Positions 52,966 through 56,502 of a DNA stretch of 64,000 nucleotides are shown here, in pieces (position 1 is the stretch's first letter; each line of letters begins with the position of its first letter). The notes under the pieces were generated by a model, which worked only from the letters and a program-made list of their open reading frames with translations, did no database searches and had not been told where the DNA came from. Source of the stretch: Candidatus Jettenia caeni (lineage in GTDB: Bacteria; Planctomycetota; Brocadiia; Brocadiales; Brocadiaceae); the NCBI GenBank assembly GCA_000296795.1, contig BAFH01000003.1, positions 744,401-808,400 of the forward strand, written 5' to 3'. The translations under genes were made by a program, and so were the position numbers.

Positions 52966-53201
52966 CTATAGCATCCAGGAGATGAAACCGAACAGAATGT
53001 GGCAAAAGTTAATCTTTCGTTGTATGCAGGTGTAGGGAACATACGGAATCCTTAAACATGTCATTATGAGGGGTTTTTCCGAAACAATCTCTTCTGAAAC
53101 ATGCAAAGGATTGCTTCGGACACTACCCTCGCAATGACATCGGGACAGTCTTTCCTCTGTTGAGGAGAGGATATGTTCGGTTTCATACTTGGAATACTAT
53201 A
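52966..53201. repeat. Composite repeat: element A interrupted by element B (copy 2)
   Basis: The left arm carries GATGAAACCGAACA at about 52982, and the right arm TGTTCGGTTTCATA...AATACTATA ends at 53201. In between, at 53060-53138, is a complete element B (GTCATTATGAGGGG ... CCCTCGCAATGAC). It lies directly upstream of the rhodanese gene, so it may contribute to that gene's promoter region. Confidence 0.8.
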
Positions 53202-53279
53202 AACAATATATTTCGGAGGAGAAGCATGTGTTTGGTCGTTTGAGAATGTACAATTCAAAAAATAAGGAGGTAGACAATT

Positions 53280-53618
53280 ATGATACAACCTATACGTATT
53301 ACCCCGGAAGAAGCTCATAAAAAACTTGAATCTCATGAGGCCATTCTTGTATGTGCATATGAGGATGATGTAAAATATAAACAAATGCAGTTGCAAGAGG
53401 CAATTTCGCTCAGAGAATTTAAATCCAGGCTTCCTTCACTTGCTAAGGACAAGGAAATTATTTTCTATTGTGCCTGACCGAATGAAAACAGCGCTGCCGG
53501 TCAGGCAGCAAAATATATTGAGCAAGGATACAAAAATGCAAAGGCTCTTGGCGGTGGTGTTGAGGCATGGAAAAAGGCAGGGTATCCGATGGTTCATGCA
53601 AGTAGCTATTCGAAATAG
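53280..53618 (+). CDS. Rhodanese-like sulfurtransferase, probable selenoprotein (in-frame UGA at 53475-53477)
   Basis: AAGGAGG precedes the ATG. Read through the TGA, the gene encodes 112 residues forming one complete rhodanese domain: I-R-I-T-P-E-E-A-H-K-K-L at the start, A-I-L-V-C-A-Y and I-S-L-R-E-F. Then come I-I-F-Y-C-A-[UGA]-P-N-E-N-S-A-A and G-G-G-V-E-A-W-K-K-A-G-Y-P at the end, stopping at TAG. The UGA lies two residues after the catalytic-loop Cys (residue 64), where relatives usually have Cys in C-A-C-P-N-E. Sequence after it is conserved and in frame, and a hairpin with the features of a bacterial SECIS follows at once. A simple nonsense mutation would leave an inactive 65-residue fragment. 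Rhodanese-type selenoproteins have been predicted in other bacteria. Sel genes are not in this window. Confidence 0.8.
53493..53509 (+). promoter_or_regulatory. Putative bacterial SECIS hairpin
   Basis: The stem GCTGCC (53493-53498) pairs with GGCAGC (53504-53509) around the loop GGTCA. The loop starts 21 nt after the UGA. Bacterial SECIS elements place a short hairpin with G in the first loop positions about 16-37 nt after UGA. The well-studied E. coli fdhF element has GGUCU at its tip, so the GGUC core is shared. Confidence 0.75.
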
Positions 53619-53684: not shown

Positions 53685-53857
53685 ACGGTAACTGTTTGTG
53701 CGGCTGCTCGTAGAATTTTCCAAAAAGCCCTAAAAATGAATGCAAGTGTACAAAAAACTTCATGTAATGTATAGAAATTTCAATGTTTGTTGAAATTACA
53801 GAACACTGTCGGGGTTTAGAATCCTGACAGTGTTAATTTCCGTAATATAATAAATTT

Positions 53858-54088
53858 ATAGTATTCAATAGATGAAACCGAACAGAATAGGGAGAAGGTT
53901 GAGTCTTTGGCTAATAAGTAAGTGTATGAAATGCAGAGGATTCTGAAAATGTCATTGCAAGGGTAGTGTCCGAAGCAATCCCTTGAATAGTTCAGAAGAG
54001 ATTGCTTCGGAAAAGACCCTCGCAATGACAGACTGGGGAATCTTTCTTCATCTGATGATATGTTCGGTTTCATCATTTGGATACTATA
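53858..54088. repeat. Composite repeat: element A interrupted by element B (copy 3)
   Basis: Outer arms TATAGTATTCAA-TAGATGAAACCGAACA and TGTTCGGTTTCATC-ATTTGGATACTATA enclose a complete element B at 53951-54029. The layout is the same as copy 2, with flanking spacers of similar length, so the nested form moves or is copied as one unit. Confidence 0.85.
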
Positions 54089-54964: not shown

Positions 54965-56502
54965 TCTAGCGTGACTTTACTAAAGTAAAGCCGAAGCAAA
55001 GTCATAAGATATTGACATATAAGGAGAAGATGAGCAATTTGAGTGTATACACTGATATATAGAGCAATAAGGGGAAAAGGATGTGATAGGAGAGGAGAGT
55101 AGGATTAAGCAAATATATCCAATAATTATCAGATGGACGTCATTGACCCAAAAGAAATACCTTTCATCGAAGAAGAGATAATCAAAGTGCTCCTTGATAA
55201 ACAGCAAATAAATCTTGATACCTTGCTGTGTGATACGAGTAATTTTTTTACCTACATTGATTCTGGCAACAGGCAGTGCGATGTTGCCCGGAGGGGATAT
55301 AATAAACAAAAGAGAATGGACTTGAAGCAGTTTGGATTATTTCTTTTAGTTTCCCGTCAGGATCAAATTCCCCTTTTTCATAAGATATATCAGGGAAATC
55401 TTTCAGATAGAACGATTTTTCAAGAGCAATTCAGAGATATGGTAAATCGATTTAAAGCCATTTCCGGCTCATTAGAGGACATAACCCTGGTATTTGACCA
55501 GGGAAATAACTCCAAGAAGATATTACAAGAGGTAAACAGCACAGTGAGTTTTGTCGGCTCTGTATCACCCTATCACCAGAGGTCTCTTATAGAAGAGGCC
55601 AATAGATCGATGAGCAAAATACAGGTAAAGGATCGTAGTGTTGATTGTTGTCGGATAAGAACCAACCTTTGGCAGATGGATCTTACGGTAGTGGTATATA
55701 TTTCCGAGAAACTTCGGCAGGGACAACTCAGAGGAGTTGAGCAAAGCATAAAGAAACTCTTTGAAAAACTCAAGGGTATTCAGGAAAAAATCAAGGCACC
55801 GACTCAAAGAGGTAAAAAGAGAGACCGTGAGGAGTTAGAAGCGAGAATAACAGCACTCATTGCTTCTTCCGTACCGGAGGGTCTTATTGACTGGCGTATT
55901 GAAGATGGGAAAAGAGATGCATTTGAACTGGACTTTTGGATAGAGCAAGAGCGGTTTGAGTATTTGAAAGAACATTGGTTTGGGCGTCGTATAGTAATCA
56001 CCAACCGTCATAAATGGGATACAGAGGAGATTATCCTGGCTTATTGGGGACAACATAAGGTGGAATATGTTTTTAAAAATCTTAAAAATCCCTTTCACTT
56101 GGCAGTGCGGCCGCAGTATCACTGGACAGACCAGAAGATTGAAGTTCATGGATTTATTTGGGTGCTTGCATTTCTTCTGGGCATGATTGCTTATAAAAGA
56201 GCCAAAGAAAAAGCACGTTTCCAGGGCTCAATCTCTACACTCCTGGAGAAACTCTCATCGATAAGGCTTGCAACATTCATTGAAGGCCCTTCAGAGAAAT
56301 CGAAAGGGAAATATAAGACAACTCAACATCTTGAAGAAATGGATGAAGACCTTTTAGCTCTTGTAAACGCTCTAGGAATATCTCATGCACTAGAAAAGTC
56401 TTCAATCCCTTTCAGTGTATACAACTAAAAAATTCGCTTTCCTCATATATCTCAACACCTTAGGACTTTATTTTGACTTTACTTTAGTAAAGTCACGCTA
56501 GA
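54965..56502 (+). mobile_element. IS1634-like insertion sequence with 26-bp perfect terminal inverted repeats
   Basis: The left end TCTAGCGTGACTTTACTAAA... (54965-54990) is the exact inverse of the right end at 56477-56502, 26 bp in all. The terminal repeats themselves contain the palindrome CTTTACTAAAGTAAAG. The element is about 1.54 kb and holds one transposase frame. I could not see a target-site duplication with certainty. Confidence 0.85.
55133..56428 (+). CDS. IS1634/IS4-superfamily DDE transposase, apparently N-terminally shortened
   Basis: A 431-residue frame. The likely catalytic acids are Asp in L-L-C-D-T-S-N-F (about residue 34), Asp in L-V-F-D-Q-G-N-N-S-K-K (about 124) and Glu near V-E-Y-V-F-K-N-L-K (about 310), as in IS1634-type enzymes with a beta-strand insertion. 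The C-terminal H-G-F-I-W-V-L-A-F-L-L segment is typical. Family members usually have about 100 or more extra N-terminal residues. Only 168 bp separate this start from the IS end, and the frame has a stop just upstream, so the DNA-binding N-terminus seems lost. There is no good ribosome site. The copy is probably defective. Confidence 0.82.
   Translation: MDVIDPKEIPFIEEEIIKVLLDKQQINLDTLLCDTSNFFTYIDSGNRQCDVARRGYNKQKRMDLKQFGLFLLVSRQDQIPLFHKIYQGNLSDRTIFQEQFRDMVNRFKAISGSLEDITLVFDQGNNSKKILQEVNSTVSFVGSVSPYHQRSLIEEANRSMSKIQVKDRSVDCCRIRTNLWQMDLTVVVYISEKLRQGQLRGVEQSIKKLFEKLKGIQEKIKAPTQRGKKRDREELEARITALIASSVPEGLIDWRIEDGKRDAFELDFWIEQERFEYLKEHWFGRRIVITNRHKWDTEEIILAYWGQHKVEYVFKNLKNPFHLAVRPQYHWTDQKIEVHGFIWVLAFLLGMIAYKRAKEKARFQGSISTLLEKLSSIRLATFIEGPSEKSKGKYKTTQHLEEMDEDLLALVNALGISHALEKSSIPFSVYN

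Follow-up and report, generated by a model that had tools for sequence, protein, structure and literature searches.

Single-domain rhodaneses of the E. coli GlpE and YgaP type carry the ordinary active-site signature, an Asp-x-Arg motif together with a six-residue loop. The E. coli fdhF-type SECIS, which serves selenocysteine (Sec) insertion, has a short stem, and its loop starts with GGUC and lies about 20 nt downstream from the UGA. Rhodanese domains with a Cys-x-Sec (CxU) motif have been catalogued as rhodanese-like form 3, with TKB26178.1 as the representative (PMC13188914), and are also listed as COG0607 form 2 (PMC9312934). Rhodanese forms 1, 2 and 4 (UxxS or UxxG) and TsoB (UxxxxU), a rhodanese/DsbD fusion, likewise contain a Sec-bearing rhodanese domain but use other Sec motifs; none of the rhodanese selenoproteins in that catalogue contains U-x-U (PMC13188914). 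The CxU form is also represented in NCBIfam by NF041203 (rhodanese_LYCAU, 'rhodanese-related (seleno)protein'), whose members consist of a single rhodanese domain with Cys-x-Sec in the active-site loop.

We analysed a rhodanese gene within a 64,000-nucleotide stretch of the Candidatus Jettenia caeni genome (the window), which the first-pass annotation had interpreted as encoding a selenoprotein. The host is an anammox planctomycete with a 4.09 Mb genome. The reading frame extends from an ATG to a TAG on the forward strand (53280-53618), with a Shine-Dalgarno-like AAGGAGG (53264-53270) 9 nt upstream of the start codon. Translation revealed a single internal TGA (53475-53477) in what is otherwise one complete rhodanese domain. 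Reading through this codon gives a protein of 112 residues with Sec at position 66, which matched the Pfam Rhodanese family (PF00581) with 37.3 bits against a gathering cut-off of 22.2. The AlphaFold2 model of the 112-residue protein had a pLDDT of 89.7 and a pTM of 0.84, and its top structural matches were experimentally solved rhodanese structures, including GlpE and BH2092. The protein resembles the GlpE/YgaP-type enzymes in its fold (GlpE TM 0.74 by query) and catalytic Cys, but those proteins are without Sec. A contig of Ca. Jettenia ecosi contains a copy whose protein is 88% identical. From the conservation of the UGA, the Sec machinery of the host, a conserved and co-varying SECIS hairpin and the rhodanese fold, we conclude that UGA 53475-53477 is almost certainly decoded as Sec. 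Standard annotation would split such a gene into two truncated pieces or miss it altogether.

NF041203 was the best family match of the Jettenia rhodanese, although its score of 71.5 bits was below the curated cut-off of 115; ordinary rhodanese paralogues scored about the same (65-73 bits), and a search of 392 planctomycete genomes returned no sequence above the 115-bit cut-off. The CxU motif of NF041203 is present as FYCAU in Jettenia and as FYC[AGDKN]U in its relatives. However, residues 25-27 of the Jettenia protein (Cys25-Ala-Tyr27, within LVCAY; 53352-53360) occupy the place of the ordinary Asp-x-Arg, which is retained by acidobacterial and some planctomycete members (L060, L061, L063, L097 and L118), among them the members nearer to NF041203 (L060, L061 and L097). 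Judged by these motifs, the Jettenia rhodanese belongs to a separate subfamily whose hallmarks are LVCAY and, in most members, FYC[AG]U. The CxU kind of rhodanese selenoprotein as such had already been predicted and catalogued. What we add is the anammox setting, SECIS covariation at silent sites and relatives with a U-x-U motif. The open-access literature that we searched yielded no account of a selenoprotein in an anammox bacterium.

The first-pass annotation had placed the TGA in the active-site loop at a position where Cys is common. The loop assignment was borne out, although the codon lies two residues beyond the canonical catalytic Cys rather than at it. The Cys residues of ordinary rhodanese paralogues, with loops HCAAGVRS and YCARGKRS, align with Cys64 (TGT, 53469-53471), and Sec66 follows two residues later, such that the two residues form a Cys-x-Sec pair. 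In one gapless profile alignment, the GlpE Cys was instead placed against the Sec column. We favor Cys64 as the canonical catalytic Cys on the basis of its position after the strand and of single-Cys relatives with FYCRS, FYCDS or FYCDR. The Sec66 loop, CAUPNENS, is about two residues longer than those of the ordinary paralogues and is without Arg or Lys, and the genome's own ordinary paralogue has DVR where the selenoprotein has Cys25-Ala-Tyr27. Thus, in place of the Asp-x-Arg and basic six-residue loop of the classical rhodanese active site, this protein has Cys-x-Tyr and a longer loop.

These features bear on the type of reaction that the protein would catalyze. One alternative is that the selenoprotein acts as an ordinary sulfurtransferase, carrying a persulfide on Cys64 while Sec66 merely tunes its reactivity. 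The rhodanese fold is consistent with this role, as is retention of the canonical Cys64 in the CxU, CxC and single-Cys relatives. However, the ordinary paralogue (CAAGVRS) has basic residues that are missing from this loop, Cys-x-Tyr stands in for Asp-x-Arg, and most relatives keep a Cys or Sec at the +2 position, a combination that fits a redox pair better. We therefore consider the ordinary sulfurtransferase role rather unlikely. Because the active site combines Cys-x-Sec with loss of the loop Arg and of Asp-x-Arg, redox chemistry on thiols or persulfides is more probable than classical thiosulfate transfer, which suggests that Cys64 and Sec66 constitute a thiol/selenol redox pair rather than the active site of a thiosulfate:acceptor sulfurtransferase. 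Such a pair would most likely alternate between its reduced form and a selenenylsulfide joining Cys64 and Sec66, and this cycle may reduce or pass on sulfane sulfur (persulfides) or else reduce disulfides, with Cys25 as a possible additional thiol.

The same codon was TGA in all three genomes of the genus and in another 11 from the family, in which it followed codons for CA, CG or CD; seven of these 11 contained a near-full frame with no other stop. TGA-bearing homologues were also present in Desulfobacterota, Nitrospirota, Acidobacteriota and other Planctomycetes. Among 41 homologues, the Sec column was TGA in 30, Cys in eight and another residue (Ser or Arg) in three, which is the mixture of UGA and Cys that had been anticipated for a Sec position. 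This distribution also bears on the possibility of a decaying gene whose TGA arose by nonsense mutation or sequencing error. The TGA does break the frame, three family members (L029, L033 and L035) contain an additional TAA within the frame that was matched, perhaps because these copies are decaying or were affected by assembly, and one homologue, described below, has a TGA at the neighboring Cys with no hairpin. However, the same TGA occurs repeatedly in separate genomes of the genus, the family and several phyla, an intact domain continues past the codon and a conserved hairpin accompanies it, making either explanation very improbable. The family-wide conservation of the Sec codon suggests that selenium serves sulfur or thiol redox chemistry in anammox bacteria, and growth media and proteome searches for these organisms should allow for selenium and Sec.

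Downstream from the UGA, the sequence contains exactly the hairpin that the first-pass annotation had described, with a perfect 6-bp stem (GCTGCC, 53493-53498, and GGCAGC, 53504-53509) and a GGTCA loop (53499-53503) that begins 21 nt from the UGA. Published constraints for bacterial SECIS (bSECIS) elements specify a loop of 3-9 nt with a G in its first two positions, a stem of 4-16 bp, a spacing of 16-37 nt and a minimum free energy (MFE) of -7.5 kcal/mol or lower (PMC13188914). The 5-nt GGUCA loop, 6-bp stem, 21-nt spacing and MFE of -12.4 kcal/mol of the Jettenia hairpin are all within these limits. As in the fdhF-type SECIS, a short stem presents a GGUC-starting loop about 20 nt past the UGA; unlike that element, the Jettenia hairpin is a single 6-bp stem with no predicted lower helix. 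In four of the five members that were named above for keeping Asp-x-Arg, CGTGC or CGTGT replaces the GGTC of the loop. An Rfam search with the hairpin identified no relevant family, and only chance matches were returned, the majority of which fell on a palindromic repeat close by. Three of 200 dinucleotide shuffles folded as well as the native sequence (z -2.5), and so by folding of the single sequence the hairpin is only moderately unusual, which is too weak as proof. The argument for a SECIS therefore rests on comparative data.

The four inner pairs of the stem were present in one fixed register in all 30 TGA homologues, whereas none of the 11 non-TGA homologues contained them (Fisher p=3e-10, an inflated value because the test overstates the independence of related homologues). 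Resampling of synonymous codons predicted the inner stem in only 4.6 of the 30 TGA homologues. In an alignment of 27 sequences, 95.7% of the pair cells were paired, and this value fell to 19-58% when the partner was slid by 1-3 bases. The covariation score was 0.358 compared with a shuffled mean of 0.176, and 15 cells were changed on both sides compared with 3.5 in shuffles; none of 500 shuffles was as high by either measure. Two of the co-varying pairs, +18/+30 (TA, CG or TG) and +21/+27 (CG, TA or AT), join third positions of codons. The exchanges at these positions are thus both coupled and silent, and protein constraint does not explain them. Together, absence of the stem from the Cys forms and silent covariation would be hard to explain by anything other than a SECIS element. 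These results uphold the earlier argument that chance would not bring the TGA and the hairpin together. The tree of this family, which is based on about 100 residues, was poorly resolved and too weak for a precise count of Sec/Cys exchanges; its well-supported branches offered only one independent Sec/Cys contrast, which was in agreement.

All four sel genes were found in the Jettenia genome, as the selenoprotein reading had called for. The profile scores of selA (552 bits) and selB (390 bits) were both above the cut-off, and the two genes adjoin each other with about 140 bp between them. The score of selD was 363 bits, and selC encodes a tRNA-Sec with a TCA anticodon. The selD gene (G000:C2:339579-340505, L076) itself has a TGA in frame within the active-site motif CGGU (TCGGUAGK), and its product is a second predicted selenoprotein of this genome, of a well-known kind. 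Although an in-frame TGA with coding sequence beyond it would look the same if UGA stood for Trp or some other residue, or if the genetic code had changed, we regard such reassignment as scarcely credible, since homologues that lack the TGA mostly have Cys in its place and in no case Trp, the genome contains the full Sec pathway, and the UGA is followed by a SECIS hairpin that is missing in the Cys forms. With Sec as the preferred reading, translation would proceed to UGA 53475-53477, the hairpin (53493-53509) would recruit SelB carrying Sec-tRNA(Sec), Sec would be inserted at position 66, and translation would then continue to the TAG.

Five relatives contained two in-frame TGAs, in the Cys64 and Sec66 columns, and thus a U-x-U motif. 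These were found in Nitrospirota (L053) and in several planctomycete families (L088, L092, L093 and L098), and all of them had the hairpin. One shared hairpin lies 27 nt from the first UGA and 21 nt from the second, and both spacings are within the 16-37 nt range. One genome (G081) contained both a CxU copy and a UxU copy. It is therefore probable that Sec-x-Sec active sites exist, with UGA-NNN-UGA being decoded via a single SECIS hairpin; if so, Sec would occupy both the catalytic position and its partner in a single rhodanese loop. The literature searched, which was mostly open-access, contained no description of a U-x-U rhodanese. A single fold thus offers a natural series of Cys-x-Cys, Cys-x-Sec and Sec-x-Sec forms in which the SECIS comes and goes with Sec, making these rhodaneses a good system for studying Sec gain and loss and the role of Sec in the rhodanese loop. 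The U-x-U protein from Nitrospirota also contains a C-terminal YHS-like stretch that scored 27.7 bits, just below the Pfam cut-off.

The homologue with a TGA at the neighboring Cys (L037, genome G023) differs from the U-x-U forms. Its first Cys codon is TGA, its second position is Cys, and it has no hairpin. This TGA is probably a plain nonsense mutation, indicating that such changes also arise in this rhodanese family. Several homologues also continue in frame into other domains. In L037 and L036 (genome G031), the Cys form runs on into the beginning of an N-acetyltransferase domain, with a Pfam match in L036. In L089 and L090, from two related planctomycetes with genomes of 9-10 Mb, a CxC rhodanese is followed in frame by CBS domains, which matched Pfam in L089.

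Inspection of the gene neighborhood in other phyla revealed no functional link to the rhodanese, as the neighbors were unrelated genes for FBPase, HsdM, an NAD-binding protein, a citrate transporter, a sigma-54 regulator and GAPDH. Elsewhere in the window, a 431-aa frame (55133-56428) resembles an insertion-sequence transposase by eye, with no Pfam match at E 1e-4. The Jettenia rhodanese gene is flanked on either side by a copy of a MITE-like element (52967-53201 and 53857-54088). This element is about 235 bp long, with terminal inverted repeats of about 28 bp (TATAGTATTC...GATGAAACCGAACA) and an inner palindrome, and it had 75 matches in the genome when the inner palindrome was counted on both strands. 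In the relatives within the genus, a MITE-like copy was present on at least one side of the rhodanese gene.
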